64,000 bases of DNA from Eudorina sp. 2006-703-Eu-15. Taxonomy: Eukaryota; Chlorophyta; Chlorophyceae; Chlamydomonadales; Volvocaceae. The stretch lies in NCBI GenBank assembly GCA_003117195.1, contig BDSI01000165.1:160910-224909 (forward strand), in the 5' to 3' direction. The stretch's first letter is position 1. Each line of letters opens with the position of its first letter. The notes under the pieces are model-generated. The model was not told where the DNA came from. It saw nothing but the letters and a program-made list of their open reading frames with translations, and ran no database searches. Shown here one piece after another: positions 34,430 to 64,000 of this stretch. A program made the translations under genes and the position numbers.

Positions 34430-34760
34430 CGTCGAAGCTGTACCGCTGGAGGGCTCGCTGGTATCGGAGGTGGACCGCTGGACGGTTGGCTGGCGTCGGA
34501 GCTGAACCGCTGGAGGGGGGCTGGCTGGCGTCGGAGCTGGACCGCCGGCTGGACGGCGGCGTTTGAAGACGAGTGTCGCGAAGACTTGCTGGCGTCGGAG
34601 CTGGACCGGTGGAGGGCCAGCTTGCGTCGGGGCGGGACCGCTGTAGGGCGGCTGGCTGGCTTCAGAGATGGACCGCTGGACGGCTTCGTTCGAAGAGGGG
34701 CATCGTAAAGACTTGCTGGCGTCGGAGCCGGACCGCTGGAGGGCTATGGTCGGGTTAAAG
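34430..34760. repeat. Degenerate minisatellite with GGACCGCTGGAGGG core
   Basis: About eight diverged copies of a CGGAGCTGGACCGCTGGAGGG-like core at irregular 30-60 bp spacing, including two longer related blocks with GAAGACTTGCTGGCGTC / TAAAGACTTGCTGGCGTC. A frame encoding repeated LLASE.DRWRA motifs crosses part of it. No gene context. Confidence 0.7.
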
Positions 34761-35036
34761 GACCCATTCAAGGCCTTGAGGTCTGACTACGGCGCAGCCA
34801 CGCGTCGCGGCAACGCATGCATCGCGGCCGGGCGGTGCTTACCAGCGGTTGGGGCCACGTGCGCCCCTACCGTACTTGTCTCTGCATGATGATGTTCCGT
34901 ACGTAGGCCACCTAGCTTGGCTGCAAGGCCCCCTTCCGCGTTTCTGAACTTGGCCCACCTTGTTCCGGTCGTTGATTATGTTTCGCTGACACCCTCGTTT
35001 GCCCCCTCGACTTCCCTTTACTTGGCTCGGTCGAAT

Positions 35037-35107
35037 CGGTCGGGGCGGGGCGGGTCGGGCGGGTCAGGGTGGGCTGGGCTGGGCGGGCGGGTCGGGGCGG
35101 GCTGGGG
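35037..35107 (+). repeat. G-rich GGGCGGGT/GGGCTGGG repeat block
   Basis: More than ten G runs of three or more on the + strand within about 70 bp, an obvious G-quadruplex candidate. No gene is attached to it. Confidence 0.75.
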
Positions 35108-35470
35108 ATAATACCTAGGGGTGGCTTGGTTGGGGCGGGCTGGGCCTATGCGCGGCCGAGATGGGGCGGGCTGAGGACAGGGGTCGATCTGTTGCCTGTG
35201 TCCTAGATGGCCGCCCCCACGTGTTTGTGGACGGCTGGTTGAACCCCTTCGCGGGGTCTGCGGCCTCCGCCCTGCCCTGCCCCTGCCTCCCCCGCCTCCC
35301 TCTCCTCCTGCACCTGCCCCTCCCCCCGGTGCAGGGCAGGGCGACGTCATGGCAGCAGCCGGGTCCATCTCCCGCGCCGCTGCTGAGTGTTACTGGAAGG
35401 ATTGCCCTCCTCGCTGAGGGAGACCCTGGACAAGGTGGTGCCGATCGGAAATCAAGGTGGTGAGGCGGCA

Positions 35471-35496
35471 CCTCGCCAGCTCGCTAGCTGGCGAGG
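35471..35496. repeat. Perfect 11-bp inverted repeat (hairpin)
   Basis: CCTCGCCAGCT and AGCTGGCGAGG flank a 4-base loop. It is not followed by a T run, and eukaryotic context makes a bacterial-type terminator unlikely. Confidence 0.8.
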
Positions 35497-38400
35497 CCAC
35501 GCGCCGGAGCTGGGGCCGGGTGGGGCGCATGGGCTTGGGTGCCGCAACCGGGTGGTTGTCACCACCCCCAAACGGGTGGACTGTAGGGGGACCCCATGCG
35601 GCAGCGCTAGGATGGCCGGGATGGCCGGGAGGGGCAACCGGTGGGATACCGGGGGCGGGTCGGGGGTGCTGGGGGAGTTGGGTGGGCGGGGCTGCACCGC
35701 AGTGGGCAAGGTGGGGTGGACGGGAGGAGGTGGGACGTGGAGTGAATGTAGAAGGAGGGGGAGGGGGAGGAGGAGGAGTCGTAACAGGTTCATGGCGGAT
35801 GGCGCATGCCGCGTCACGACACTCGTGTTTTGCTCGTCCTGCACATGTACGGAGGAGTCGGCGCTACAGTTGCTGTTGCTGCCGCGTCTAGCAACATTGT
35901 GGCTTTTAATCCTCAATGCTCTCACTGGGTGGGTGGGGCGTCACCGCGGGTTCCCCATTCGTCGGCGCGGTGGAAAGGAGGCGGGGAAGGGTGCGGGGAG
36001 GGGTGCCCTGCAGCAACCTACCTGCCTGACTCAACCTGACCCAACCTGACCCAACCCGACCCAACCTGTAGGGCGGGCCGTCCGGACGGAGGCTCGGTCG
36101 CCTCTCCCGGTGGGGGCCAGGGCGGTGTATTAGCAGGTAGGGTAGGTGCACGGTTTCGGTAATCGGTATGCATAGGCAAGCGCTTTCGGTGTGCTTTCAG
36201 ACGAGAGCGCTTGGAGCGGCGGGGTGGGTGAATGGGGTCGCTGGGTCCCGAGTGGAAGGTCAACGGACGCTATGGGCAATTGTGCCGCGAAATCCTAGGG
36301 CTGAGCCGGATCGAGCCGGATCTACGCGGATGGCTGCGCGCCCGATTTGTACGGTATGTGCGACCATGGTTGGTTGCCGACGGGGGAGCTCGCACACGGC
36401 GCCGCGGCGGCGGCGGTCGAAGTGTGAGCGGTTGCCGATAACCCGGCAGCGATATGGCTGGCCGTCGCGCGGGGAATGACACCAGGTGTGGCTCGCCGGG
36501 GCGCCGAGGCCCCCTTGCGCCACGCAGCTGCACCTGCCTCGCACCGGCAGCCCAGGACCCGGGGGGGCCCTGCCAAGGAGTTGCACAGATCGACTTGCAC
36601 AACACCGCCCGGTCTGTAACCCTGGGCTGATGAATCGGCTGGTGTGCGTGCCGAAACCCGAAAGCAGGTGACGTGCGTCGCTGCGGCCGGCCGCCTTCTG
36701 TTACCACAGCGCCCTTCCAAAGTCTTGTTCAGCGCACATCGCCATGTTATAAAGCCTGCCTTGCCTCAGTCCCAGAAGCATGCGCTAACGAGCATGTCGC
36801 TCGCCGGCAGCGTCCCAACCGACATAGACATCGACACAGCTTTTGTAACTACGGTAGATGCGCAAGCCCCGCTCAGCCTCGCAATAATTGATGTATGTCT
36901 GCTTGGTTATGCGCATTTGCTTGATCATGTTGTGGGCAGCGTCCTCTTGAACTTGTAGGCCATCCCAAACGCAGCATGTGACAGCGCGACACAACTAATT
37001 CAGCCGAAATGAACTCCAGATTGCATAGTAAGCACCTCTTACAACCATGTATGAGCATTCGCAGTCCTTGAATTACCATTCACCTGACGACGTTCTGCAT
37101 GCCTGACGCCATCGTCGATCCCACCGCGGAAGTGCGCCATGAAGGGCGCGCATCACATGTTGAACGTATATAATGATAAGAATTGAAATGAACGAGCACA
37201 GCTACGGTAGGCAACAGAGCTGGTAGAGCGCTTTGCAGTAATTGCAGCGAATTCCGCAAACTTCTCCAGCAATGCGACTCAACGCCATCATAATACGAGG
37301 CAAAACTGGCTGGCTACGGCCGAGGCGTCGCCCACAGACTGCGCCATCCCTATAAAGTCTTTTGTTCGGTTTTAGCGTAAATGGGAAATCACCAAGCCAG
37401 CCGGTCCTTGTCACGGTACCTTTCCCAATCCGGTTAAAATGACCTCAAGTTTATGCACCAAAAGCCAATCCCTGAAGCATGTACGAAGCAGCAGTAGTGA
37501 CATTGTCATCTTGTACCACGTTAAGGCCTATATAAACTTGCGACTCACCTTCCTTTCAATAACCAGCAGCTGTATCACAGCAGAAAACAGTTCAATTAAA
37601 GTTTTCTTACTGCACTCTCGCTTACCGTAAGCTTAGGAGTCCATTCCTGTCCTTTCCAGAGCGTTGTGCTCAACTTGGTCGCAGCCAAGCAGCTTCAACG
37701 TCCAAGGTGAGCTCATGATGTTGGATCGCCTGCAAAAGGCATTTGCTGGTCACCAGGGCTTACGCTCCAAAGTTGATGCGAGCTTCCTTCCCAACAATCC
37801 ACAGGGTGATTCGAAAATTAATTTTAATTTTCCTAATTATATTGCTGCAGGGATATCACAAACAATTGTCAAGGTCATGTTCCTGTCGACAGCAAAGTTG
37901 CCAGCGCCGCTGCAAACTCTTACGTGACTGCTGGTTTGTGGATATTATGCTATCAGACTGCAACTTGAAGCTCGTTTCGTGTCGTGACCATGTTAGTTGC
38001 GGACGCACGTTGACGCAATGCTTGGCATGCCTGCTGGCCGCGAGTGGCCGACATTGGTATACATGATTCTGGGAGTGAAAATACAGTTCGCCGGTTTGCG
38101 CACTGATCTGGGATCACATTGTGCTTCGTCGGCACGAAGTGGTGCCTTTGGTACTCGTCAACCTCGTATTGATCCGTCCCGCGCGCCGCGCCTCTGCTTC
38201 CCTCGCACAGACCCGAGTGACCCGCGGAGCTTGCTGACCAAGGACGAAGGAGCGCGACATTGTGCAGCTGACCGACGCGCACAAGACAACTCTCAGTCCC
38301 ACATGCAGTGGGCGTACGTCGGTCAAGGTCACCATACAGCCATCCGCTGCACGGAGGCTGCCCTTCATGGTTCCTCGAGAGGTGGCCGTTTGCAACACCG

Positions 38401-41400
38401 CCGCCGCTGCAATTGCTCACCGTCAACGCGTCAAGACAAGAATGCGTTTTGGATCCATGGGATGGGCGGGCTGGGGAGGAGGGACTTTACGTGGGTTGGA
38501 ATGAATGTCCTTGCTGGGGAGGAGGGACTTCGCGTGGGTTGGGATGTCTGGGCTGGGGAGGTCCGCCAGGGGTGTGGGTAGGTTTCCGACTCGATGGCAC
38601 GTCCGTACCCGCGTGTGTTCGCAGCTGCCTTCAGGGTATGAGCTGACTCGTTGCGTCTTTGCTTGCAGGCGGGCTCATCGGAAGAGGAGGTCCGCCAGGG
38701 GTGTGGGTAAGTCACCGACTCGATGGCACGTCCGTACCCGCGTGTGTTCGCAGCTGCCTTCAGGGTATGAGCTGACTCGTTGCGTATTTGCTTGCAGGCG
38801 GGCGCATCGAAAGGGGAGGTCCGCCAGGCGTGTGGGTAAGTCTCCGACTCGATGGCACGTCCGTACCCGCGGAAGTCCGCAGCTGCCTTCAGGGTATGAG
38901 CTGACTCGTTGCGTCTTTGCTTGCAGGCGGGCGCATCGAAAGGGGAGGTCCGCCAGGTAGGCGTGTGGGTAAGTCACCGACTCGATGGCACGTCGATACC
39001 CGCGGATGTGCGCAGCTGCCTTCAGGATATGAGCTGACTCATTGCGTCTTTGCTTGCAGGCGGGCTCATCGGAAGAAGAGGTCCGCCAGGGGTGTGGGTA
39101 CGTCTCCGACTCGATGGCACGTCTGTAACCGCGGAAGTCCGCAGCTGCCTTCAGGGTATGAGCTGACTCGTTGCGTCTTTGCTTGCAGGCGGGCGCATCG
39201 GAAGGGGAGGTCCGCCAGGTAGGCGTGTGCGTAAGTCACCGACTCGATAGCACATCCATACCCGCGTGTGTTCGCAGCTGCCTTCAGGGTATGAGCTGAC
39301 TCGTTGCGTCTGCTTGCAGGCGGGCTCATCGGAAGGGGAGGTCCGCCAGGGGTGTGGGTAAGTCTCCGACTCGATGGCACGTCCGTACCCGCGTGTGTTC
39401 GCAGCTGCCTTGAGGGTATGAGCTGACTCGTTGCGTATTTGCTTGCAGGCGGGCTCATCGGAAGGGGAGGTCCGCCAGGGGTGTGGGTAAGTCTCCGACT
39501 CGATGGCACGTCCGTACCCGCGTGTGTTCGCAGCTGCCTTGAGGGTATGAGCTGACTCGTTGCGTCTGCTTGCAGGCGGGCTCATTGAAAGGGGAGGTCC
39601 GCCAGGGGTGTGGGTAGGTTTCCGACTCGATGGCACGTCCGTACCCGCGTGTGTTCGCAGCTGCCTTGAGGGTATGAGCTGACTCGTTGCGTCTGCTTGC
39701 AGGCGGGCTCATCGGAAGGGGAGGTCCGCCAGGGGTGTGGGTAAGTCTCCGACTCGATGGCACGTCCGTACCCGCGTGTGTTCGCAGCTGCCTTGAGGGT
39801 ATGAGCTGACTCGTTGCGTATTTGCTTGCAGGCGGGCTCATCGGAAGGGGAGGTCCGCCAGGGGTGTGGGTAAGTCTCCGACTCGATGGCACGTCCGTAC
39901 CCGCGTGTGTTCGCAGCTGCCTTGAGGGTATGAGCTGACTCGTTGCGTCTGCTTGCAGGCGGGCTCATTGAAAGGGGAGGTCCGCCAGGGGTGTGGGTAA
40001 GTCTCCGACTCGATGGCACGTCCGTACCCGCGGAAGTCCGCAGCTGCCTTCAGGGTATGAGCTGACTCATTGCGTCTTTGCTTGCAGGCGGGCTCATCGG
40101 AAGAGGAGGTCCACCAGGGGTGTGGGTAAGTCTCCGACTCGATGGCACGTCCGTACCCGCGGAAGTCCGCAGCTGCCTTCAGGGTATGAGCTGACTCATT
40201 GCGTCTTTGCTTGCAGGCGGGCTCATCGGAAGAGGAGGTCCGCCAGGCGTGTGGGTAAGTCTCCGACTCGATGGCACGTCCGTACCCGCGGAAGTCCGCA
40301 GCTGCCTTCAGGGTATGAGCTGACTCATTGCGTCTTTGCTTGCAGGCGGGCTCATCGGAAGAGGAGGTCCGCCAGGCGTGTGGGTAAGTCTCCGACTCGA
40401 TGGCACGTCCGTACCCGCGGAAGTCCGCAGCTGCCTTCAGGGTATAAGCTGACTCGTTGCGTCTTTGCTTGCAGGCGGGCTCATCGGAAGAGGAGGTCCG
40501 CCAGGCGTGTGGATAAGTCTCCGACTCGATGGCACGTCCGTACCCGCGGAAGTCCGCAGCTGCCTTCAGGGTATGAGCTGACTCGTTGCGTCTGCTTGCA
40601 GGCGGGCTCATCGGAAGGGGAGGTCCGCCAGGGGTGTGGGTAAGTCTCCGACTCGATGGCACGTCCGTACCCGCGTGTGTTCGCAGCTGCCTTCAGGGTA
40701 TGAGCTGACTCGTTGCGTCTTTGCTTGCAGGCGGGCTCATCGGAAGAGGAGGTCCGCCAGGGGTGTGGGTAAGTCTCCGACTCGATGGCACGTCCGTACC
40801 CGCGTGTGTTCGCAGCTGCCTTCAGGGTATGAGCTGACTCATTGCGTCTTTGCTTGCAGGCGGGCTCATCGAAAGGGGAGGTCCGCCAGGCGTGTGGGTA
40901 AGTCTCCGACTCGATGGCACGTCCGTACCCGCGGAAGTCCGCAGCTGCCTTGAGGGTATGAGCTGACTCGTTGCGTCTTTGCTTGCAGGCGGGCTCATCG
41001 AAAGGGGAGGTCCGCCAGGCGTGTGGGTAAGTCTCCGACTCGATGGCACGTCCGTACCCGCGGAAGTCCGCAGCTGCCTTGAGGGTATGAGCTGACTCGT
41101 TGCGTCTTTGCTTGCAGGCGGGCGCATCGAAAGGGGAGGTCCGCCAGGTAGGCGTGTGGGTAAGTCACCGACTCGATGGCACGTCGATACCCGCGGATGT
41201 CCGCAGCTGCCTTCAGGGCATGAGCTGACTCATTGCGTCTTTGCTTGCAGGCGGGCTCATCGAAAGGGGAGGTCCGCCAGGGGTGTGGGTAGGTTTCCGA
41301 CTCGATGGCACGTCCGTACCCGCGGAAGTCCGCAGCTGCCTTCAGGGTATGAGCTGACTCGTTGCGTCTTTGCTTGCAGGCGGGCGCATCGAAAGGGGAG

Positions 41401-44400
41401 GTCCGCCAGGGGTGTGGGTAGGTCTACGACTCGATGGCACGTCCGTACCCGCGTGTGTTCGCAGCTGCCTTGAGGGTATGAGCTGACTCGTTGCGTCTTT
41501 GCTTGCAGGCGGGCGCATCGAAAGGGGAGGTCCGCCAGGTAGGCGTGTGGGTAAGTCACCGACTCGATGGCACGTCGATACCCGCGGATGTGCGCAGCTG
41601 CCTTCAGGGTATGAGCTGACTCGTTGCGTCTTTGCTTGCAGGCGGGCTCATCGGAAGAGGAGGTCCGCCAGGGGTGTGGGTAAGTCACCGACTCGATGGC
41701 ACGTCGATACCCGCGGATGTCCGCAGCTGCCTTGAGGGTATGAGCTGACTCGTTGCGTCTTTGCTTGCAGGCGGGCGCATCGAAAGGGGAGGTCCGCCAG
41801 GTAGGCGTGTGGGTAAGTCACCGACTCGATGGCACGTCGATACCCGCGGATGTGCGCAGCTGCCTTCAGGGTATGAGCTGACTCGTTGCGTCTTTGCTTG
41901 CAGGCGGGCTCATCGGAAGAGGAGGTCCGCCAGGGGTGTGGGTAAGTCACCGACTCGATGGCACGTCGATACCCGCGGATGTCCGCAGCTGCCTTCAGGG
42001 TATGAGCTGATTCGTTGCGTCTTTGCTTGCAGGCGGGCTCATCGGAAGAGGAGGTCCGCCAGGCGTGTGGGTAAGTCACCGACTCGATGGCACGTCGATA
42101 CCCGCGGATGTCCGCAGCTGCCTTCAGGGTATGAGCTGACTCGTTGCGTCTTTGCTTGCAGGCGGGCTCATCGGAAGATGAGGTCCGCCAGGTAGGCGTG
42201 TGGGTAAGTCACCGACTCGATGGCACGTCGATACCCGCGGATGTGCGCAGCTGCCTTCAGGGTATGAGCTGACTCGTTGCGTCTTTGCTTGCAGGCGGGC
42301 TCATCGGAAGAGGAGGTCCGCCAGGGGTGTGGGTAAGTCACCGACTCGATGGCACGTCGATACCCGCGGATGTCCGCAGCTGCCTTGAGGGTATGAGCTG
42401 ACTCGTTGCGTCTTTGCTTGCAGGCGGGCGCATCGAAAGGGGAGGTCCGCCAGGTAGGCGTGTGGGTAAGTCACCGACTCGATGGCACGTCCGTACCCGC
42501 GTGTGTTCGCAGCTGCCTTCAGGGTATGAGCTGACTCATTGCCTCTTAGTATGCAGGCGGGCTCATCGGAAGAGGAGGTCCGCCAGGGGTGTGGGTAAGT
42601 CACCGACTCGATGGCACGTCGATACCCGCGGATGTCCGCAGCTGCCTTCAGGGTATGAGCTGACTCGTTGCGTCTTTGCTTGCAGGCGGGCGCATCGGAA
42701 GATGAGGTCCGCCAGGCGTGTGGGTAAGTCTCCGACTCGATGGCACGTCCGTACCCGCGTGTGTTCGCAGCTGCATTGAGGGTATGAGCTGACTCGTTGC
42801 GTCTGCTTGCAGGCGGGCTCATCGAAAGGGGAGGTCCGCCAGGGGTGTGGGTAGGTCTCCGACTCGATGGCACGTCCGTACCCGCGTGTGTTCGCAGCTG
42901 CCTTGAGGGTATGAGCTGACTCGTTGCGTCTTTGCTTGCAGGCGGGCTCATCGAAAGGGGAGGTCCGCCAGGGGTGTGGGTAGGTCTCCGACTCGATGGC
43001 ACGTCCGTACCCGCGTGTGTTCGCAGCTGCCTTGAGGGTATGAGCTGACTCGTTGCGTCTTTGCTTGCAGGCGGGCTCATCGAAAGGGGAGGTCCGCCAG
43101 GGGTGTGGGAAAGTCACCGACTCGATGGCACGTCCGTACCCGCGGAAGTCCGCAGCTGCCTTCAGGGTATGAGCTGACTCATTGCCTCTTAGTATGCAGG
43201 CGGGCTCATCGGAAGAAGAGGTCCGCCAGGGGTGTGGGTAGGTCTCCGACTCGATGGCACGTCCGTACCCGCGGAAGTCCGCAGCTGCCTTCAGGGTATG
43301 AGCTGACTCATTGCCTCTTAGTATGCAGGCGGGCGCATCGAAAGGGGAGGTCCGCCAGGCGTGTAGGTAAGTCACCGACTCGATGGCACGTCCGTACCCG
43401 CGGAAGTCCGCAGCTGCCTTGAGGGTATGAGCTGACTCGTTGCGTCTTTGCTTGCAGGCGGGCTCATCGGAAGAGGAGGTCCGCCAGGGGTGTGGGTAAG
43501 TCACCGACTCGATGGCACGTCGATACCCGCGTGTGTTCGCAGCTGCCTTCAGGGTATGCGCTGACTCGTTGCGTCTTTGCTTGCAGGCGGGCTCATCGAA
43601 AGGGGAGGTCCGCCAGGCGTGTGGGTAGGTTCCCGACTCGATGGCACGTCCGTACCCGCGTGTGTTCGCAGCGGCCTTCAGGGTATGAGCTGACTCATTG
43701 CCTCTTAGTATGCAGGCGGGCTCATCGAAAGGGGAGGTCCGCCAGGCGTGTGGGTAAGTCTCCGACTCGATGGCACGTCCGTACCCGCGGAAGTCCGCAG
43801 CTGCCTTGAGGGTATGAGCTGACTCGTTGCGTCTTTGCTTGCAGGCGGGCGCATCGAAAGGGGAGGTCCGCCAGGTAGGCGTGTGGGTAAGTCACCGACT
43901 CGATGGCACGTCGATACCCGCGGATGTCCGCAGCTGCCTTCAGGGCATGAGCTGACTCATTGCGTCTTTGCTTGCAGGCGGGCTCATCGAAAGGGGAGGT
44001 CCGCCAGGGGTGTGGGTAGGTTTCCGACTCGATGGCACGTCCGTACCCGCGGAAGTCCGCAGCTGCCTTCAGGGTATGAGCTGACTCGTTGCGTCTTTGC
44101 TTGCAGGCGGGCGCATCGAAAGGGGAGGTCCGCCAGGGGTGTGGGTAGGTCTACGACTCGATGGCACGTCCGTACCCGCGGAAGTCCGCAGCTGCCTTCA
44201 GGGTATGAGCTGACTCATTGCGTCTTTGCTTGCAGGCGGGCTCATCGAAAGGGGAGGTCCGCCAGGCGTGTGGGTAAGTCTCCGACTCGATGGCACGTCC
44301 GTACCCGCGGAAGGCCGCAGCTGCCTTCAGGGTATGAGCTGACTCGTTGCGTCTTTGCTTGCAGGCGGGCGCATCGAAAGGGGAGGTCCGCCAGGTAGGC

Positions 44401-47400
44401 GTGTGGGTAAGTCACCGACTCGATGGCACGTCGATACCCGCGGATGTGCGCAGCTGCCTTCAGGGTATGAGCTGACTCGTTGCGTCTTTGCTTGCAGGCG
44501 GGCTCATCGGAAGAGGAGGTCCGCCAGGGGTGTGGGTAAGTCACCGACTCGATGGCACGTCGATACCCGCGGATGTCCGCAGCTGCCTTCAGGGTATGAG
44601 CTGACTCGTTGCGTCTTTGCTTGCAGGCGGGCTCATCGGAAGATGAGGTCCGCCAGGTAGGCGTGTGGGTAAGTCACCGACTCGATGGCACGTCGATACC
44701 CGCGGATGTGCGCAGCTGCCTTCAGGGTATGAGCTGACTCGTTGCGTCTTTGCTTGCAGGCGGGCTCATCGGAAGAGGAGGTCCGCCAGGGGTGTGGGTA
44801 AGTCACCGACTCGATGGCACGTCGATACCCGCGGATGTCCGCAGCTGCCTTCAGGGTATGAGCTGACTCGTTGCGTCTTTGCTTGCAGGCGGGCGCATCG
44901 GAAGATGAGGTCCGCCAGGCGTGTGGGTAAGTCTCCGACTCGATGGCACGTCCGTACCCGCGTGTGTTCGCAGCTGCATTGAGGGTATGAGCTGACTCGT
45001 TGCGTCTGCTTGCAGGCGGGCTCATCGAAAGGGGAGGTCCGCCAGGGGTGTGGGTAGGTCTCCGACTCGATGGCACGTCCGTACCCGCGTGTGTTCGCAG
45101 CTGCCTTGAGGGTATGAGCTGACTCGTTGCGTCTTTGCTTGCAGGCGGGCTCATCGAAAGGGGAGGTCCGCCAGGGGTGTGGGTAGGTCTCCGACTCGAT
45201 GGCACGTCCGTACCCGCGTGTGTTCGCAGCTGCCTTGAGGGTATGAGCTGACTCGTTGCGTCTTTGCTTGCAGGCGGGCTCATCGAAAGGGGAGGTCCGC
45301 CAGGGGTGTGGGTAAGTCACCGACTCGATGGCACGTCCGTACCCGCGGAAGTCCGCAGCTGCCTTCAGGGTATGAGCTGACTCATTGCCTCTTAGTATGC
45401 AGGCGGGCTCATCGGAAGAAGAGGTCCGCCAGGGGTGTGGGTAGGTCTCCGACTCGATGGCACGTCCGTACCCGCGGAAGTCCGCAGCTGCCTTCAGGGT
45501 ATGAGCTGACTCATTGCCTCTTAGTATGCAGGCGGGCGCATCGAAAGGGGAGGTCCGCCAGGCGTGTAGGTAAGTCACCGACTCGATGGCACGTCCGTAC
45601 CCGCGGAAGTCCGCAGCTGCCTTGAGGGTATGAGCTGACTCGTTGCGTCTTTGCTTGCAGGCGGGCTCATCGGAAGAGGAGGTCCGCCAGGCGTGTGGGT
45701 AAGTCACCGACTCGATGGCACGTCCGTACCCGCGGAAGTCCGCAGCTGCCTCCAGGGTATGAGCTGACTCGTTGCGTCTTTGCTTGCAGGCGGGCTCATC
45801 GGAAGAGGAGGTCCGCCAGGGGTGTGGGTAAGTCACCGACTCGATGGCACGTCGATACCCGCGTGTGTTCGCAGCTGCCTTCAGGGTATGCGCTGACTCG
45901 TTGCGTCTTTGCTTGCAGGCGGGCTCATCGAAAGGGGAGGTCCGCCAGGCGTGTGGGTAGGTTCCCGACTCGATGGCACGTCCGTACCCGCGTGTGTTCG
46001 CAGCGGCCTTCAGGGTATGAGCTGACTCATTGCCTCTTAGTATGCAGGCGGGCTCATCGGAAGAAGAGGTCCGCCAGGGGTGTGGGTAGGTCTCCGACTC
46101 GATGGCACGTCCGTACCCGCGTGTGTTCGCAGCTGCCTTCAGGGTATGAGCTGACTCATTGCGTCTTTTCCTGCAGGCGGGCTCATCGAAAGGGGAGGTC
46201 CGCCAGGGGTGTGGGTAGGTCTCCGACTCGATGGTACGTCGATACCCGCGGAAGTCCGCAGCTGCCTTCAGGGTATGCGCTGACTCGTTGCGTCTTTGCT
46301 TGCAGGCGGGCGCATCAAAAGAGGACGTCCGCCAGGGGTGTGGGTAGGTCTCCGACTCGATGGCACGTCCGTACCCGCGTGTGTTCGCAGCTGCCTTCAG
46401 GGTATGAGCTGACTCATTGCCTCTTAGTATGCAGGCGGGCTCATCGGAAGAGGAGGTCCGCCAGGGGTGTGGGTAGGTCTCCGACTCGATGGCACGTCTG
46501 TAACCGCGGAAGTCCGCAGCTGCCTTCAGGGCATGAGCTGACTCATTGCGTCTTTGCTTGCAGGCGGGCTCATCGAAAGGGGAGGTCCGCCAGGGGTGTG
46601 GGTAAGTCTCCGACTCGATGTTCGCAGCTGCCTTCAGGGTATGAGCTGACTCATTGCGTCTTTGCTTGCAGGCGGGCTCATCGAAAGGGGAGGTCCGCCA
46701 GGCGTGTGGGTAGGTCTCCGACTCGATGGTACGTCGATACCCGCGGAAGTCCGCAGCTGCCTTCAGGGTATGAGCTGACTCGTTGCGTCTTTGCTTGCAG
46801 GCGGGCGCATCGAAAGGGGAGGTCCGCCAGGTAGGCGTGTGGGTAAGTCACCGACTCGATGGCACGTCGATACCCGCGGATGTGCGCAGCTGCCTTCAGG
46901 GTATGAGCTGACTCATTGCGTCTTTGCTTGCAGGCGGGCTCATCGGAAGAGGAGGTCCGCCAGGGGTGTGGGTAAGTCTCCGACTCGATGGCACGTCCGT
47001 ACCCGCGTGTGTTCGCAGCTGCCTTCAGGGTATGAGCTGACTCATTGCGTCTTTGCTTGCAGGCGGGCTCATCGAAAGGGGAGGTCCGCCAGGCGTGTGG
47101 GTAAGTCTCCGACTCGATGGCACGTCCGTACCCGCGGAAGTCCGCAGCTGCCTTGAGGGTATGAGCTGACTCGTTGCGTCTTTGCTTGCAGGCGGGCGCA
47201 TCGAAAGGGGAGGTCCGCCAGGTAGGCGTGTGGGTAAGTCACCGACTCGATGGCACGTCGATACCCGCGGATGTCCGCAGCTGCCTTCAGGGCATGAGCT
47301 GACTCATTGCGTCTTTTCTTGCAGGCGGGCGCATCGAAAGGGGAGGTCCGCCAGGGGTGTGGGTAGGTTTCCGACTCGATGGCACGTCCGTACCCGCGGA

Positions 47401-47978
47401 AGTCCGCAGCTGCCTTCAGGGTATGAGCTGACTCGTTGCGTCTTTGCTTGCAGGCGGGCGCATCGAAAGGGGAGGTCCGCCAGGGGTGTGGGTAAGTCTA
47501 CGACTCGATGGCACGTCCGTACCCGCGGAAGTCCGCAGCTGCCTTCAGGGTATGAGCTGACTCATTGCCTCTTAGTATGCAGGCGGGCTCATCGAAAGGG
47601 GAGGTCCGCCAGGCGTGTGGGTAAGTCTCCGACTCGATGGCACGTCGATACCCGCGGATGTGCGCAGCTGCCTTCAGGGTATGAGCTGACTCGTTGCGTC
47701 TTTGCTTGCAGGCGGGCGCATCGAAAGGGGAGGTCCGCCAGGTAGGCGTGTGGGTAAGTCACCGACTCGATGGCACGTCGATACCCGCGGATGTGCGCAG
47801 CTGCCTTCAGGGTATGAGCTGACTCGTTGCGTCTTTGCTTGCAGGCGGGCTCATCGGAAGAGGAGGTCCGCCAGGGGTGTGGGTAAGTCACCGACTCGAT
47901 GGCACGTCGATACCGCGGATGTCCGCAGCTGCCTTCAGGGTATGAGCTGACTCGTTGCGTCTTTGCTTGCAGGCGGGC

Positions 47979-50900
47979 TCATCGGAAGATGAGGTCCGCC
48001 AGGCGTGTGGGTAAGTCTCCGACTCGATGGCACGTCCGTACCCGCGTGTGTTCGCAGCTGCCTTCAGGGTATGAGCTGACTCGTTGCGTCTTTGCTTGCA
48101 GGCGGGCGCATCGAAAGGGGAGGTCCGCCAGGTAGGCGTGTGGGTAAGTCACCGACTCGATGGCACGTCGATACCCGCGGATGTGCGCAGCTGCCTTCAG
48201 GGTATGAGCTGACTCGTTGCGTCTTTGCTTGCAGGCGGGCTCATCGGAAGAGGAGGTCCGCCAGGGGTGTGGGTAAGTCACCGACTCGATGGCACGTCGA
48301 TACCCGCGGATGTCCGCAGCTGCCTTCAGGGTATGAGCTGACTCGTTGCGTCTTTGCTTGCAGGCGGGCTCATCGGAAGATGAGGTCCGCCAGGCGTGTG
48401 GGTAAGTCTCCGACTCGATGGCACGTCCGTACCCGCGTGTGTTCGCAGCTGCATTGAGGGTATGAGCTGACTCGTTGCGTCTGCTTGCAGGCGGGCTCAT
48501 CGAAAGGGGAGGTCCGCCAGGGGTGTGGGTAGGTCTCCGACTCGATGGCACGTCCGTACCCGCGTGTGTTCGCAGCTGCCTTGAGGGTATGAGCTGACTC
48601 GTTGCGTCTTTGCTTGCAGGCGGGCTCATCGAAAGGGGAGGTCCGCCAGGGGTGTGGGTAAGTCACCGACTCGATGGCACGTCCGTACCCGCGGAAGTCC
48701 GCAGCTGCCTTCAGGGTATGAGCTGACTCATTGCCTCTTAGTATGCAGGCGGGCTCATCGGAAGAAGAGGTCCGCCAGGGGTGTGGGTAGGTCTCCGACT
48801 CGATGGCACGTCCGTACCCGCGGAAGTCCGCAGCTGCCTTCAGGGTATGAGCTGACTCATTGCCTCTTAGTATGCAGGCGGGCGCATCGAAAGGGGAGGT
48901 CCGCCAGGCGTGTAGGTAAGTCACCGACTCGATGGCACGTCCGTACCCGCGGAAGTCCGCAGCTGCCTTGAGGGTATGAGCTGACTCGTTGCGTCTTTGC
49001 TTGCAGGCGGGCTCATCGGAAGAGGAGGTCCGCCAGGCGTGTGGGTAAGTCACCGACTCGATGGCACGTCGATACCCGCGGATGTCCGCAGCTGCCTTCA
49101 GGGTATGAGCTGACTCGTTGCGTCTTTGCTTGCAGGCGGGCTCATCGGAAGATGAGGTCCGCCAGGTAGGCGTGTGGGTAAGTCACCGACTCGATGGCAC
49201 GTCGATACCCGCGGATGTGCGCAGCTGCCTTCAGGGTATGAGCTGACTCGTTGCGTCTTTGCTTGCAGGCGGGCTCATCGGAAGAGGAGGTCCGCCAGGG
49301 GTGTGGGTAAGTCACCGACTCGATGGCACGTCGATACCCGCGGATGTCCGCAGCTGCCTTCAGGGTATGAGCTGACTCGTTGCGTCTTTGCTTGCAGGCG
49401 GGCTCATCGGAAGATGAGGTCCGCCAGGCGTGTGGGTAAGTCTCCGACTCGATGGCACGTCCGTACCCGCGTGTGTTCGCAGCTGCATTGAGGGTATGAG
49501 CTGACTCGTTGCGTCTTTGCTTGCAGGCGGGCTCATCGAAAGGGGAGGTCCGCCAGGGGTGTGGGTAGGTCTCCGACTCGATGGCACGTCCGTACCCGCG
49601 TGTGTTCGCAGCTGCCTTGAGGGTATGAGCTGACTCGTTGCGTCTTTGCTTGCAGGCGGGCTCATCGAAAGGGGAGGTCCGCCAGGGGTGTGGGTAAGTC
49701 ACCGACTCGATGGCACGTCCGTACCCGCGGAAGTCCGCAGCTGCCTTCAGGGTATGAGCTGACTCATTGCCTCTTAGTATGCAGGCGGGCTCATCGGAAG
49801 AAGAGGTCCGCCAGGGGTGTGGGTAGGTCTCCGACTCGATGGCACGTCCGTACCCGCGGAAGTCCGCAGCTGCCTTCAGGGTATGAGCTGACTCATTGCC
49901 TCTTAGTATGCAGGCGGGCGCATCGAAAGGGGAGGTCCGCCAGGCGTGTAGGTAAGTCACCGACTCGATGGCACGTCCGTACCCGCGGAAGTCCGCAGCT
50001 GCCTTGAGGGTATGAGCTGACTCGTTGCGTCTTTGCTTGCAGGCGGGCTCATCGGAAGAGGAGGTCCGCCAGGCGTGTGGGTAAGTCACCGACTCGATGG
50101 CACGTCGATACCCGCGGATGTCCGCAGCTGCCTTCAGGGTATGAGCTGACTCGTTGCGTCTTTGCTTGCAGGCGGGCTCATCGGAAGATGAGGTCCGCCA
50201 GGTAGGCGTGTGGGTAAGTCACCGACTCGATGGCACGTCGATACCCGCGGATGTGCGCAGCTGCCTTCAGGGTATGAGCTGACTCGTTGCGTCTTTGCTT
50301 GCAGGCGGGCTCATCGGAAGAGGAGGTCCGCCAGGGGTGTGGGTAAGTCACCGACTCGATGGCACGTCGATACCCGCGGATGTCCGCAGCTGCCTTCAGG
50401 GTATGAGCTGACTCGTTGCGTCTTTGCTTGCAGGCGGGCTCATCGGAAGATGAGGTCCGCCAGGCGTGTGGGTAAGTCTCCGACTCGATGGCACGTCCGT
50501 ACCCGCGTGTGTTCGCAGCTGCATTGAGGGTATGAGCTGACTCGTTGCGTCTGCTTGCAGGCGGGCTCATCGAAAGGGGAGGTCCGCCAGGGGTGTGGGT
50601 AGGTCTCCGACTCGATGGCACGTCCGTACCCGCGTGTGTTCGCAGCTGCCTTGAGGGTATGAGCTGACTCGTTGCGTCTTTGCTTGCAGGCGGGCTCATC
50701 GAAAGGGGAGGTCCGCCAGGGGTGTGGGTAAGTCACCGACTCGATGGCACGTCCGTACCCGCGGAAGTCCGCAGCTGCCTTCAGGGTATGAGCTGACTCA
50801 TTGCCTCTTAGTATGCAGGCGGGCTCATCGGAAGAAGAGGTCCGCCAGGGGTGTGGGTAGGTCTCCGACTCGATGGCACGTCCGTACCCGCGGAAGTCCG

Positions 50901-52080
50901 CAGCTGCCTTCAGGGTATGAGCTGACTCATTGCCTCTTAGTATGCAGGCGGGCGCATCGAAAGGGGAGGTCCGCCAGGCGTGTAGGTAAGTCACCGACTC
51001 GATGGCACGTCCGTACCCGCGGAAGTCCGCAGCTGCCTTGAGGGTATGAGCTGACTCGTTGCGTCTTTGCTTGCAGGCGGGCTCATCGGAAGAGGAGGTC
51101 CGCCAGGCGTGTGGGTAAGTCACCGACTCGATGGCACGTCGATACCCGCGGATGTCCGCAGCTGCCTTCAGGGTATGAGCTGACTCGTTGCGTCTTTGCT
51201 TGCAGGCGGGCTCATCGGAAGATGAGGTCCGCCAGGTAGGCGTGTGGGTAAGTCACCGACTCGATGGCACGTCGATACCCGCGGATGTGCGCAGCTGCCT
51301 TCAGGGTATGAGCTGACTCGTTGCGTCTTTGCTTGCAGGCGGGCTCATCGGAAGAGGAGGTCCGCCAGGGGTGTGGGTAAGTCACCGACTCGATGGCACG
51401 TCGATACCCGCGGATGTCCGCAGCTGCCTTCAGGGTATGAGCTGACTCGTTGCGTCTTTGCTTGCAGGCGGGCTCATCGGAAGATGAGGTCCGCCAGGCG
51501 TGTGGGTAAGTCTCCGACTCGATGGCACGTCCGTACCCGCGTGTGTTCGCAGCTGCATTGAGGGTATGAGCTGACTCGTTGCGTCTTTGCTTGCAGGCGG
51601 GCTCATCGAAAGGGGAGGTCCGCCAGGGGTGTGGGTAGGTCTCCGACTCGATGGCACGTCCGTACCCGCGTGTGTTCGCAGCTGCCTTGAGGGTATGAGC
51701 TGACTCGTTGCGTCTTTGCTTGCAGGCGGGCTCATCGAAAGGGGAGGTCCGCCAGGGGTGTGGGTAAGTCACCGACTCGATGGCACGTCCGTACCCGCGG
51801 AAGTCCGCAGCTGCCTTCAGGGTATGAGCTGACTCGTTGCGTCTTTGCTTGCAGGCGGGCTCATCGAAAGGGGAGGTCCGCCAGGCGTGTGGGTAAGTCA
51901 CCGACTCGATGGCACGTCCGTACCCGCGTGTGTTCGCAGCTGCATTGAGGGTATGAGCTGACTCATTGCCTCTTAGTATGCAGGCGGGCTCATCGGAAGA
52001 AGAGGTCCGCCATGGGTGTGGGTAGGTCTCCGACTCGATGGCACGTCCGTACCCGCGGAAGTCCGCAGCTGCCTTCAGGG
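47979..52080 (+). repeat. Higher-order repeat: 8-unit blocks of 1,034-1,036 bp
   Basis: Characteristic variant monomers recur at a fixed spacing. One pair of marker monomers occurs at 48654, 49690 and 50724 (1,036 and 1,034 bp apart). Another set occurs at 49174, 50210 and 51244. The 2-bp difference is explained by a 127-bp monomer in one block, and the excess over 8 x 129 by one 133-bp monomer per block. Blocks of the same type reappear, with more small deletions, at about 53.6-56.6 kb (54173 and 55207; 54691 and 55725). Confidence 0.9.
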
Positions 52081-52536
52081 TATGAGCTGACTCATTGCCT
52101 CTTAGTATGCAGGCGGCGCATCGAAAGGGAGGTCCGCCAGGCGTGTAGGTAAGTCACCGACTCGATGGCACGTCCGTACCGCGGAAGTCCGCAGCTGCCT
52201 TGAGGGTATGAGCTGACTCGTTGCGTCTTTGCTTGCAGGCGGCTCATCGGAAGAGGAGGTCCGCCAGGCGTGTGGGTAAGTCACCGACTCGATGGCACGT
52301 CCGTACCCGCGGAAGTCCGCAGCTGCCTTCAGGGTATGAGCTGACTCGTTGCGTCTTTGCTTGCAGGCGGGCTCATCGGAAGAGGAGGTCCGCCAGGGGT
52401 GTGGGTAGGTCCCGACTCGATGGACGTCGATACCGCGGAAGTCCGCAGCTGCCTTCAGGGTATGCGCTGACTCGTTGCGTCTTTGCTTGCAGGCGGGCGC
52501 ATCGGAAGAGGAGGTCCGCCAGGGGTGTGGGTAGGT

Positions 52537-52639
<103 letters not shown>

Positions 52640-55600
52640 AGTCACCGACTCGATGGCACGTCGATACCCGCGTGTGCGCAGCTGCCTTCAGGGTATGCGC
52701 TGACTCGTTGCGTCTTTGCTTGCAGGCGGGCTCATCGAAAGGGAGGTCCGCCAGGCGTGTGGGTAGGTTCCCGACTCGATGGCACGTCCGTACCCGCGTG
52801 TGTTCGCAGCGGCCTTCAGGGTATGAGCTGACTCGTTGCCTCTTAGTATGCAGGCGGGCTCATCGGAAGAAGAGGTCCGCCAGGGGTGTGGGTAGGTCTC
52901 CGACTCGATGGCACGTCCGTACCCGCGTGTGTTCGCAGCTGCCTTCAGGGTATGAGCTGACTCGTTGCGTCTTTGCTTGCAGGCGGGCTCATCGAAAGGG
53001 GAGGTCCGCCAGGCGTGTGGGTAAGTCTCCGACTCGATGGCACGTCCGTACCCGCGGAAGTCCGCAGCTGCCTTGAGGGTATGAGCTGACTCGTTGCGTC
53101 TTTGCTTGCAGGCGGCGCATCGAAAGGGGAGGTCCGCCAGGGGTGTGGGTAAGTCACCGACTCGATGGCACGTCGTACCCGCGGATGTCCGCAGCTGCCT
53201 TCAGGGTATGAGCTGACTCATTGCGTCTTTGCTTGCAGGCGGGCGCATCGAAAGGGGAGGTCCGCCAGGGGTGTGGGTAGGTCTCCGACTCGATGGCACG
53301 TCCGTACCCGCGGAAGTCCGCAGCTGCCTTCAGGGTATGAGCTGACTCGTTGCGTCTTTGCTTGCAGGCGGGCGCATCGAAAGGGGAGGTCCGCCAGGGG
53401 TGTGGGTAGGTCTACGACTCGATGGCACGTCCGTACCCGCGGAAGTCCGCAGCTGCCTTCAGGGTATGAGCTGACTCATTGCGTCTTTGCTTGCAGGCGG
53501 GCTCATCGAAAGGGAGGTCCGCCAGGCGTGTGGGTAAGTCTCCGACTCGATGGCACGTCGTACCCGCGATGTGCGCAGCTGCCTTCAGGGTATGAGCTGA
53601 CTCGTTGCGTCTTTGCTTGCAGGCGGGCTCATCGAAAGGGAGGTCCGCCAGTAGGCGTGTGGGTAAGTCACCGACTCGATGGCACGTCGATACCCGCGGA
53701 TGTGCGCAGCTGCCTTCAGGGTATGAGCTGACTCGTTGCGTCTTTGCTTGCAGGCGGGCTCATCGGAAGAGGAGGTCCGCCAGGGGTGTGGGTAAGTCAC
53801 CGACTCGATGGCACGTCGATACCCGCGGATGTCCGCAGCTGCCTTCAGGGTATGAGCTGACTCGTTGCGTCTTTGCTTGCAGGCGGGCTCATCGGAAGAT
53901 GAGGTCCGCCAGGCGTGTGGGTAAGTCTCCGACTCGATGGCACGTCCGTACCCGCGTGTGTTCGCAGCTGCCTTCAGGGTATGAGCTGACTCGTTGCGTC
54001 TGCTTGCAGGCGGGCTCATCGAAAGGGGAGGTCCGCCAGGGGTGTGGGTAGGTCTCCGACTCGATGGCACGTCCGTACCCGCGTGTGTTCGCAGCTGCCT
54101 TGAGGGTATGAGCTGACTCGTTGCGTCTTTGCTTGCAGGCGGGCTCATCGAAAGGGGAGGTCCGCCAGGGGTGTGGGTAAGTCACCGACTCGATGGCACG
54201 TCCGTACCCGCGGAAGTCCGCAGCTGCCTTCAGGGTATGAGCTGACTCATTGCCTCTTAGTATGCAGGCGGGCTCATCGAAGAAGAGGTCCGCCAGGGGT
54301 GTGGGTAGGTCTCCGACTCGATGGCACGTCCGTACCCGCGGAAGTCCGCAGCTGCCTTCAGGGTATGAGCTGACTCATTGCCTCTTAGTATGCAGGCGGG
54401 CGCATCGAAAGGGGAGGTCCGCCAGGCGTGTAGGTAAGTCACCGACTCGATGGCACGTCCGTACCGCGGAAGTCCGCAGCTGCCTTGAGGGTATGAGCTG
54501 ACTCGTTGCGTCTTTGCTTGCAGGCGGGCTCATCGGAAGAGGAGGTCCGCCAGGCGTGTGGGTAAGTCACCGACTCGATGGCACGTCGATACCCGCGGAT
54601 GTCCGCAGCTGCCTTCAGGGTATGAGCTGACTCGTTGCGTCTTTGCTTGCAGGCGGGCTCATCGGAAGATGAGGTCCGCCAGGTAGGCGTGTGGGTAAGT
54701 CACCGACTCGATGGCACGTCGATACCCGCGGATGTGCGCAGCTGCCTTCAGGGTATGAGCTGACTCGTTGCGTCTTTGCTTGCAGGCGGGCTCATCGGAA
54801 GAGGAGGTCCGCCAGGGGTGTGGGTAAGTCACCGACTCGATGGCACGTCGATACCCGCGGATGTCCGCAGCTGCCTTCAGGGTATGAGCTGACTCGTTGC
54901 GTCTTTGCTTGCAGGCGGGCTCATCGGAAGATGAGGTCCGCCAGGCGTGTGGGTAAGTCTCCGACTCGATGGCACGTCCGTACCCGCGTGTGTTCGCAGC
55001 TGCATTGAGGGTATGAGCTGACTCGTTGCGTCTTTGCTTGCAGGCGGGCTCATCGAAAGGGGAGGTCCGCCAGGGGTGTGGGTAGGTCTCCGACTCGATG
55101 GCACGTCCGTACCCGCGTGTGTTCGCAGCTGCCTTGAGGGTATGAGCTGACTCGTTGCGTCTTTGCTTGCAGGCGGGCTCATCGAAAGGGGAGGTCCGCC
55201 AGGGGTGTGGGTAAGTCACCGACTCGATGGCACGTCCGTACCCGCGGAAGTCCGCAGCTGCCTTCAGGGTATGAGCTGACTCATTGCCTCTTAGTATGCA
55301 GGCGGCTCATCGGAAGAAGAGGTCCGCCAGGGGTGTGGGTAGGTCTCCGACTCGATGGCACGTCCGTACCGCGGAAGTCCGCAGCTGCCTTCAGGGTATG
55401 AGCTGACTCATTGCCTCTTAGTATGCAGGCGGGCGCATCGAAAGGGGAGGTCCGCCAGGCGTGTAGGTAAGTCACCGACTCGATGGCACGTCCGTACCCG
55501 CGGAAGTCCGCAGCTGCCTTGAGGGTATGAGCTGACTCGTTGCGTCTTTGCTTGCAGGCGGGCTCATCGGAAGAGGAGGTCCGCCAGGCGTGTGGGTAAG

Positions 55601-56982
55601 TCACCGACTCGATGGCACGTCGATACCCGCGGATGTCCGCAGCTGCCTTCAGGGTATGAGCTGACTCGTTGCGTCTTTGCTTGCAGGCGGGCTCATCGGA
55701 AGATGAGGTCCGCCAGGTAGGCGTGTGGGTAAGTCACCGACTCGATGGCACGTCGATACCCGCGGATGTGCGCAGCTGCCTTCAGGGTATGAGCTGACTC
55801 GTTGCGTCTTTGCTTGCAGGCGGGCTCATCGGAAGAGGAGGTCCGCCAGGGGTGTGGGTAAGTCACCGACTCGATGGCACGTCGATACCGCGGATGTCCG
55901 CAGCTGCCTTCAGGGTATGAGCTGACTCGTTGCGTCTTTGCTTGCAGGCGGGCTCATCGGAAGATGAGGTCCGCCAGGCGTGTGGGTAAGTCTCCGACTC
56001 GATGGCACGTCCGTACCCGCGTGTGTTCGCAGCTGCATTGAGGGTATGAGCTGACTCGTTGCGTCTTTGCTTGCAGGCGGGCTCATCGAAAGGGGAGGTC
56101 CGCCAGGGGTGTGGGTAGGTCTCCGACTCGATGGCACGTCCGTACCCGCGTGTGTTCGCAGCTGCCTTGAGGGTATGAGCTGACTCGTTGCGTCTTTGCT
56201 TGCAGGCGGGCTCATCGAAAGGGAGGTCCGCCAGGGGTGTGGGTAAGTCACCGACTCGATGGCACGTCCGTACCCGCGGAAGTCCGCAGCTGCCTTCAGG
56301 GTATGAGCTGACTCATTGCCTCTTAGTATGCAGGCGGCCGCATCGAAAGGGAGGTCCGCCAGGCGTGTAGGTAAGTCACCGACTCGATGGCACGTCCGTA
56401 CCCGCGGAAGTCCGCAGCTGCCTTGAGGGTATGAGCTGACTCGTTGCGTCTTTGCTTGCAGGCGGGCTCATCGGAAGAGGAGGTCCGCCAGGCGTGTGGG
56501 TAAGTCACCGACTCGATGGCACGTCGATACCGCGGATGTCCGCAGCTGCCTTCAGGGTATGAGCTGACTCGTTGCGTCTTTGCTTGCAGGCGGGCTCATC
56601 GGAAGATGAGGTCCGCCAGGTAGGCGTGTGGGTAAGTCACCGACTCGATGGCACGTCGATACCCGCGGATGTGCGCAGCTGCCTTCAGGGTATGAGCTGA
56701 CTCGTTGCGTCTTTGCTTGCAGGCGGGCGCATCAAAAGAGGACGTCCGCCAGGGGTGTGGGTAGGTCTCCGACTCGATGGCACGTCCGTACCCGCGTGTG
56801 TTCGCAGCTGCCTTCAGGGTATGAGCTGACTCATTGCCTCTTAGTATGCAGGCGGGCTCATCGGAAGAGGAGGTCCGCCAGGGGTGTGGGTAGGTCTCCG
56901 ACTCGATGGCACGTCTGTAACCGCGGAAGTCCGCAGCTGCCTTCAGGGCATGAGCTGACTCATTGCGTCTTTGCTTGCAGGC

Positions 56983-57381
56983 AGGGTGGCTATCTTAAGA
57001 TATAAATATCTATTCGGCCGAAAAACTTCTGAAATTTTAGATACTTTTGGCCTGCCAAAACATGGAGTTTAAGGTACTTTGACCCCTCGAGTGGGACATG
57101 ATATCTTCCCGTTGACATATACTCGGACGAGTGATGGGGTCCCCGATATCTCCCACCCGGGGTCGGTTCTCGTCGTCTGCAGTCATCTATGGCTAGGTGA
57201 TGTACTTATGGGTTCGGATCGTGGAAGTTCTCCATCAATGTTGCGCCCTGTCCGCTGCCCTCTGTAGATACTTCGGGCCGTTTCCAGTTAGAAATATCTC
57301 CCCATAGACAGATACTTTCAGCGTTTCGAAGCCAGGTGTATCTCTGGCCGTAGATACTCCCAAAAATAAGATAGCCACCCT
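56983..57381. mobile_element. 399-bp inverted-repeat element, array copy 1
   Basis: Perfect 15-bp terminal inverted repeats AGGGTGGCTATCTTA / TAAGATAGCCACCCT, flanked by a perfect 10-bp direct repeat GCTTGCAGGC (56973-56982 and 57382-57391). AT-rich interior with several AGATACT/AGTATC motifs. No transposase frame, so non-autonomous. A 10-bp target duplication suits Mutator-like elements (9-11 bp) better than hAT (8 bp); the superfamily is inference. The matching empty site is at 46556-46565 in the same array. Confidence 0.93.
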
Positions 57382-58162
57382 GCTTGCAGGCGGGCTCATC
57401 GGAAGAGGAGGTCCGCCAGGGGTGTGGGTAGGTCTCCGACTCGATGGTACGTCGATACCGCGGATGTCCGCAGCTGCCTTCAGGGTATGAGCTGACTCGT
57501 TGCGTCTTTGCTTGCAGGCGGGCTCATCGGAAGAGGAGGTCCGCCAGGGGTGTGGGTAGGTCTCCGACTCGATGGTACGTCGATACCCGCGGATGTCCGC
57601 AGCTGCCTTCAGGGTATGAGCTGACTCGTTGCGTCTTTGCTTGCAGGCGGCTCATCGGAAGAGGAGGTCCGCCAGGGGTGTGGGTAGGTCTCCGACTCGA
57701 TGGTACGTCGATACCGCGGATGTCCGCAGCTGCCTTCAGGGTATGAGCTGACTCGTTGCGTCTTTGCTTGCAGGCGGGCTCATCGGAAGAGGAGGTCCGC
57801 CAGGGGTGTGGGTAGATCTCCGACTCGATGGCACGTCCGTACCCGCGTGTGTTCGCAGCTGCCTTGAGGGTATGAGCTGACTCGTTGCGTCTTTGCTTGC
57901 AGGCGGGCTCATCGGAAGAGGAGGTCCGCCAGGGGTGTGGGTAAGTCACCGACTCGATGGCACGTCGATACCCGCGTGTGTTCGCAGCTGCCTTCAGGGT
58001 ATGCGCTGACTCGTTGCGTCTTTGCTTGCAGGCGGGCTCATCGAAAGGGGAGGTCCGCCAGGGGTGTGGGTAGGTCTCCGACTCGATGGCACGTCTGTAA
58101 CCGCGGAAGTCCGCAGCTGCCTTCAGGGCATGAGCTGACTCATTGCGTCTTTGCTTGCAGGC

Positions 58163-58561
58163 AGGGTGGCTATCTTAAGATATAAATATCTATTCGGCCG
58201 AAAAACTTCTGAAATTTTAGATACTTTTGGCCTGCCAAAACATGGAGTTTAAGGTACTTTGACCCCTCGAGTGGGACATGATATCTTCCCGTTGACATAT
58301 ACTCGGACGAGTGATGGGGTCCCCGATATCTCCCACCCGGGGTCGGTTCTCGTCGTCTGCAGTCATCTATGGCTAGGTGATGTACTTATGGGTTCGGATC
58401 GTGGAAGTTCTCCATCAATGTTGCGCCCTGTCCGCTGCCCTCTGTAGATACTTCGGGCCGTTTCCAGTTAGAAATATCTCCCCATAGACAGATACTTTCA
58501 GCGTTTCGAAGCCAGGTGTATCTCTGGCCGTAGATACTCCCAAAAATAAGATAGCCACCCT
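58163..58561. mobile_element. 399-bp inverted-repeat element, array copy 2
   Basis: Reads as identical in length, ends and interior to copy 1, exactly 1,180 bp downstream, with the same target duplication GCTTGCAGGC (58153-58162 and 58562-58571) and the same rare flanking monomer (CACGTCTGTAACCGCGG). It therefore arose by duplication of a roughly 1.2-kb array segment rather than by a second insertion. Confidence 0.93.
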
Positions 58562-58739
58562 GCTTGCAGGCGGGCTCATCGGAAGAGGAGGTCCGCCAGG
58601 GGTGTGGGTAGGTCTCCGACTCGATGGTACGTCGATACCCGCGGATGTCCGCAGCTGCCTTCAGGGTATGAGCTGACTCGTTGCGTCTTTGCTTGCAGGC
58701 GGGCTCATCGGAAGAGGAGGTCCGCCAGGGGTGTGGGTA

Positions 58740-59130
58740 CACTCGGGGAACGCACGGTACTTTGGAAGTCTCTTATCCTCTTCGGGAGGTCTTTGGCAGG
58801 TCTTTGGAGGCTATTTGGGCGCAACCAAAGCGCTTCAGCCGCACCCAAAGAGAAGCCAAAGAGCCCTCTTTGGAAAGCGCCCCAAAGCCGCAAGCAAAGA
58901 AGGTCGCAAAGAGCCGTCTTCGGTTTCGTCTTTGGTATGTAACAAAGATACGTTTCTGTGGGAAAATCAGATATCTTCCTGTATGTAATGCAATATATAT
59001 AGACCTTTACGGACTGAATTATAAGCAGTGAAACGGAAGGGCTCAGGGAGCGTACAACAGGATCCGGTCAACATCTTTGGCGCCACCCAAAGACATCCCA
59101 AAGGGAACCAATTCACTCAGGCCCGGCCGA
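58740..59130. repeat. Subterminal CTTTGG/CCAAAG motif cluster of the CACTA element
   Basis: CTTTGG and its complement CCAAAG or CAAAG recur more than a dozen times, in both orientations, from the CACTC terminus to about 59,100. CACTA elements carry arrays of short subterminal motifs bound by an element-encoded protein; the binding role here is inferred. Confidence 0.75.
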
Positions 59131-59229
59131 CCGTTCGACATGTGAATGTAAACCAGCCTTGCCCTCTACAACACCATTATACATATGAAAGCGTGGAGCG
59201 GGTCTGCCCTCAGATAATGTCTACAGACA

Positions 59230-63913: not shown

Positions 63914-64000
63914 GTAGGTGCCATGTGGGTGTGGGGGTGTGTGGGGGGGGTGGGGGTAGAGGATTGCCGGAATGTGATTGACCTCCGCGTGTAGGGCAAC

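Follow-up and report, generated by a model that had tools for sequence, protein, structure and literature searches.

A satellite DNA family in Eudorina with a putative exon-intron cassette in every monomer

The window studied here is a stretch of 64,000 nucleotides of Eudorina sp. 2006-703-Eu-15 (C165:160910-224909, where C followed by a number denotes a contig), and the genome searched is the 181.2-Mb assembly of 3033 contigs. Near the left end of the window lies a 699-codon open frame (255-2354), which by eye resembles the reverse transcriptase of a Penelope-like element; the frame has no Pfam match, and the name is tentative. A piece of the ATP synthase alpha gene is found on the minus strand at 27883-28596 (PF00006, E 1.2e-60; best solved relative 6rd4_T). 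The right part of the window is occupied by a dispersed repeat, a long array of tandem units and several inserts, whose coordinates are listed in Table 1.

Table 1. Features of the satellite locus in the window.
Feature	Position	Strand	Remarks
Flank family 1, dispersed repeat immediately upstream of the array	36882..38298	+	Relatives before the cassette on C32 and C80 (two places)
43-bp minisatellite, 2.3 copies, left array edge	38467..38561	+	Meets the first unit at GGGGAGG
Satellite array, 129-bp units (variants 126-133 bp)	38557..58739	+	Broken by a G run and two insert copies
Example exon, 38 nt, of one unit	38669..38706	+	Read from the sequence
Example intron, 91 nt	38707..38797	+	GTAAGT donor, CTGAC, TTGCAG acceptor; read from the sequence
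101-G run inside one unit	52538..52638	+	Tandem Repeats Finder
MITE-like insert	56982..57382		Terminal inverted repeats CAGGGTGGCTATCTTA; 8-bp target duplication CTTGCAGG on the acceptor
Second copy of the MITE-like insert	58162..58562		Identical place within its unit; 397 compared bases identical
CACTA-like insert, left part	58740..64000	+	Ends CACTC...; target duplication GTA in a donor; extends beyond the window

Tandem Repeats Finder gives a period of 129 over 38555-56982 (142.9 copies) and multiples of this period over 38555-58162. Unit matches by BLAST cover 38557-52537, 52629-56985, 57381-58165 and 58561-58739, and the gaps in this coverage are the G run and the two copies of a transposon-like insert. 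Each typical unit is laid out as a 38-nt exon, a GTAAGT or GTAGGT donor, a CTGAC branch-like motif, with 22 nt from its A to the final base of the intron, and a TGCAG acceptor, with an intron of 91 nt. Among the 147 aligned window units, the donor is GTAAGT in 99 and GTAGGT in 44, while GT is intact in 145 units, CTGAC in 146 and AG in all 147, the CTTAGTATGCAG acceptor variant being present in 24 of them. The most frequent unit lengths are 129 bp (100 units), 133 bp (19 units) and 127 bp (12 units), and the 133-bp units contain a 4-bp insert supplying a second donor-like CAG|GTAGGC. The 144 exons extracted from the window measure 38 nt (114 exons), 42 nt (19), 37 nt (9), 36 nt (1) and 40 nt (1). 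The donor, the branch-like motif and the acceptor, at fitting distances, agree with those of a spliceosomal intron, as judged against the general volvocine consensus. The original prediction had described a 129-bp satellite with a donor, CTGAC and an acceptor in each unit, a 38-nt exon plus a 91-nt intron, and acceptor variants that keep the AG. It holds on all these points, the exon and intron lengths being those of the typical unit.

On the aligned columns, 76 of the 147 window units are distinct, and the longest repeated run comprises 11 units at a distance of 2070 bp, which fits unequal exchange as a possible mode of growth; in its homogenised monomers and copied segments the array is like satellite DNA. 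The MITE-like insert, putatively of a hAT-like superfamily, was duplicated together with the array. The right edge of the array is the edge of the CACTA-like insert and not a natural array end. A fitting other end of this insert was found on C74, followed by more satellite units, and C1452 represents the empty site. C1452 and C74 carry two versions of one locus, without and with the CACTA-like insert, in a single assembly; these could be haplotypes, products of a duplication or members of a mixed culture, and C1452 is either another haplotype or a duplicate of the window locus. Inside the insert, at 60301-60890, there is a 190-bp tandem repeat (3.2 copies) that is itself an exon-intron repeat, with GTGAGT donors, TTGCAG acceptors, introns of 83, 83 and 72 nt and exons of 107, 108, 95 and 72 nt, where 108 is a multiple of three, unlike the length of the satellite exon. 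It should be noted that the 101-G run is perhaps an assembly fault. From about 52.1 kb on, units are also missing single bases of GGG or CCC runs, and the stretch with the G run and these shortened runs has perhaps been differently polished or gap-filled.

Could the array encode a repeated protein, each unit contributing one exon? None of the three frames of the consensus exon contains a stop. However, an exon length of 38 or 42 nt causes a frame shift, and the 144 joined window exons contain 18, 11 and 20 stops in the three frames (about 1846 codons per frame); the joined-exon peptide also found no protein match among 698 scored candidates. Therefore, a repeated protein, already considered unlikely in the original prediction, is rejected as almost certainly wrong. 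Long open frames of up to 693 residues, overlapping one another, do occur on the minus strand of the array, which is due to a period of 43 codons without stops, and a 358-residue frame among them had no homologue among 7999 scored candidates. Rfam at gathering thresholds detected no known RNA family in 34000-64000, and a processed exon-exon copy, sought in the genome at no more than three mismatches as a proxy for splicing, was not found. With long head-to-tail arrays at several loci and a monomer that is non-coding, given the stops in the joined exons, the repeats qualify as satellite DNA.

The family is spread over the genome. The pattern of the exon end plus donor occurs at 1512 + 836 = 2348 sites with no more than two mismatches, and the reversed control pattern at none. 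Matches were listed on at least 23 contigs, namely C8, C12, C32, C37 (three loci), C44, C72, C74, C80 (two loci), C108, C164, C165, C249, C290, C578, C673, C1050, C1263, C1452, C1538, C1887, C1932, C2485 and C2875, where the matches on C290 and C1050 rest on one 23-base pattern. On C37, pattern matches span 774292 to 819947, of which two parts were read, and in the parts read of another array on this contig (C37:8790-23417) the mid-intron has lost 8 bp in length and part of its sequence is replaced, with all three signals kept. The array runs into the contig end on C12, C578 and C1452, where the assembly probably broke at the array. An exact 26-base unit pattern had no match in viral or prokaryotic contig collections.

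Such a distribution brings to mind an introner-like family, that is, a mobile intron that inserts into genes and was by chance amplified in tandem. One intron in many copies with good signals, as well as single and short copies at C8, C37, C44 and C80, would agree with it. However, the same exon accompanies the copies, and the array ends land at differing unit positions. A different base at donor -3 occurs at 157 sites; the 100 of these that were listed appear to be shortened or point-changed forms of the unit's GTGTGG, lie mostly on contigs with known arrays, and provide no clear case of the intron alone inserted in different genes. We consider this origin very improbable.

Another question is whether an ordinary satellite merely resembles an intron by chance. 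In 4000 dinucleotide shuffles of the unit, the full signature appeared 101 times in its loose form, which leaves some room for chance, but only 19 times in its moderate form and never in its strict form. None of the three patterns was matched on the minus strand, and the moderate and strict patterns had no match on either strand of window positions 1-34000. As the arrays are of common ancestry, few columns have been free to differ, which would also favour chance; against it, conservation coincides with the splice signals, as described below. Chance likeness is therefore improbable, if somewhat less so than the introner-like origin.

For the conservation analysis, the five first arrays (147, 136, 45, 94 and 47 units) were cut at the acceptor with no more than two mismatches, a procedure biased to intact acceptors, and only segments of 100-140 bases with at least 95 identities were kept; window segments outside the length range measured 233 bases, 405 bases (twice) and 4 bases (twice). 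The 121 units of seven further loci were cut at the exon anchor, which gave intact acceptors no advantage, and 4 of 125 candidates were dropped. Over the 12 loci, GT, CTGAC and AG are all kept in 573 of 590 units (97%), the average for random blocks of the same size being 55% (p 0.002; because of the common ancestry of the arrays, P values here and below are guides and not exact probabilities). Between ten array consensuses, four of them from small loci (C80a with 1 unit, C72 with 4, C80b with 4 and C108 with 5), 40 of 129 columns differ. C1452 and C578 were left out here, since their consensuses are almost the same as those of C165 and C12. The differing columns comprise 15 of 37 in the exon, 0 of 15 in the donor block, 23 of 48 in the mid-intron and 2 of 29 from branch to acceptor. 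As for the splice columns themselves, 0 of 15 or 0 of 16 differ (P 0.0026 and 0.0017; without CpG columns, P 0.015 and 0.011). The expectation that splice positions would vary less than their neighbours once the units were aligned is thus borne out across arrays, and by a wide margin.

For the five arrays (469 units), the 15 splice columns without donor +4 have the lowest minor-allele sum of 129 rotations (p 0.008), and with donor +4 counted p is 0.03-0.10; the exclusion of donor +4 was chosen with the data in view, and both versions are given. For the 12-locus set, the splice columns rank first of 129 rotations with or without donor +4, and the mean minor-allele frequency is 0.0018 in the 15 splice columns versus 0.066 elsewhere. 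The six arrays of at least 20 units taken alone give P 0.025, and no significant splice-column effect is seen in C12 alone or C578 alone. A varied exon and mid-intron, together with near-constant donor and branch-acceptor blocks, is, at the level of these alignments, the profile of a functional intron. The conserved splicing signals suggest that the splicing machinery acts on the repeats, or did so in the past.

The chief alternative is a fossil that shares this origin but is no longer transcribed. Here, the monomer would come from a real exon-intron piece and have been selected only while it was genic, and the arrays would now be silent, their signals being kept by youth and homogenisation. 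We regard it as a distinctly possible explanation. Broken donors have been copied, since 4 of 43 units in the array at 774 kb of C37 lack GT through an identical, repeated change. Inserts have been tolerated, one in a donor and others at an acceptor, and these transposon-like inserts of two kinds, with the copied broken donors, indicate that not every unit was kept working. The stops in the joined exons, the lack of processed copies at up to three mismatches and the absence of significant constraint in C12 and C578 taken alone are also in its favour. However, divergence between arrays is seen in the exon and mid-intron, but not in the donor, branch and acceptor blocks. If youth alone were at work, every block should have been spared to the same extent, and consequently this contrast speaks against the fossil.

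On their 5' side, arrays are flanked by two families of dispersed repeats. Family 1, for which 76 matching pieces were listed and 39 of the 76 candidates scored, also lies upstream of an array on C249, as placed by matches. At two further family 1 places that were read, the position of the array is taken by other minisatellites, namely a 32-bp repeat in 16 copies on C31 and, where C80 begins, a GC-rich one. Members of family 2 stand before the cassette at C37 (two arrays), C164, C72 and C44, with a weaker match on C88. The orientation of the cassette to the flank is constant within each family at the nine loci where both were read (the window, C32, two on C80, two on C37, C164, C72 and C44). 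For a flank frame in which stops were read as X, Pfam gave no more than a match at chance level (E 0.074, below the cut-off). We also found a second flank-repeat block with 32-bp repeats at 34429-36625, which recurs in circular permutation on C31 and directly after the array on C1452 and C74. The larger element to which it belongs repeats head to tail.

On C44, the cassette is present as a single unit, and in C44, C72 and C164 the first exon has an ATG directly before it, which makes a genic source of the array plausible. The C44 exon carries an in-frame stop. Among the genome matches listed for the sequence after the C44 acceptor, none extends past the unit, and the open frame that follows (126 residues read) lacks both a Pfam match and a third-position GC excess (0.738, 0.587, 0.643). 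On these three grounds, C44 was not accepted as a proven parental gene. Derivation of the array from a gene had been anticipated, and a search for a single-copy gene containing the unit proposed as a check; a regulatory or decoy role had been raised as conjecture. The single unit with its upstream ATG was found, and the genic nature of what follows it is unsupported by the Pfam and GC results.

Several known systems are comparable. In internal repeat 1 (IR1) of Epstein-Barr virus (EBV), every tandem unit contains introns as well as exons, the latter being W1 and W2 of EBNA-LP; the exons encode a 66-residue repeat and there is a promoter in each unit (PMC5834210). Both systems are tandem arrays with an exon and an intron in every unit, and IR1 is the nearest analogue in its working among the systems found, with no sequence relation claimed. 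It differs in its coding exons, whereas the present family has a frame-breaking exon, and so no in-frame exon per unit, 129-bp units and many loci. The Drosophila Y-loop genes kl-3 and kl-5 have giant introns filled with satellite (PMC6508621), which is transcribed and intronic, as is putatively the case here; however, simple repeats lie inside one intron there, and splice signals occur in every monomer here. Introners are many near-identical introns in one genome, as are the putative introns of these arrays, but they spread singly into genes (PMC9860276), while here intron and exon were amplified together in tandem. Satellite DNA can also arise from tandem repeats inside retrotransposons (PMC7004042), which recalls the position of the present arrays at one place in dispersed repeat families, although here each monomer consists of an exon-intron cassette whose splice signals are constrained. 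Both the origin of satellites from transposons and their presence inside introns are already known from these sources. A satellite with a full exon and intron per monomer was not found in the literature searched, mostly without subscription papers, within which a whole exon-intron cassette monomer under splice-site constraint appears to be an unusual variant.

The reading we prefer, if tentatively and at a little under even chances, is that of a satellite family with a splice-competent cassette monomer (38-nt exon plus 83-91-nt intron) tolerated in transcribed DNA. It builds on the anatomy, genome-wide spread and intron-like constraint observed above. The source was probably the last part of a first exon together with the first intron next to it in some transcription unit, and C44 would retain one unit of it. 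Tandem and segment duplication would then have produced long arrays, and composites of flank and cassette would have spread to many loci. A transcript through an array may be spliced as a chain of 38-nt exons, or the array may be skipped from the first donor to the last acceptor; with a donor, a branch site and an acceptor in every unit, an array transcript could be spliced at any length. Arrays retaining splice competence would be tolerated in transcribed DNA, and we propose that the passage of transcripts through the arrays, now or in the past, preserved this competence. From the sequence we infer here that the arrays are transcribed and spliced, which way descent ran, and that tolerance explains the constraint. 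A stronger version, a spliceosome-dependent satellite, in which hundreds of tandem units at many loci are under parallel purifying selection for splicing and only arrays that are spliceable or skippable at any length are tolerated, is possible, at odds a shade lower than those of the fossil. If true, it would provide a way for satellite DNA to grow within transcription units and leave them intact.

If the arrays are spliced, they would offer hundreds of slightly different natural copies of one intron, side by side, and with them a ready test of which bases the algal spliceosome needs and of how it picks a donor and an acceptor when many equal ones are on offer. Satellite DNA may, in that case, expand in transcribed regions at low cost.
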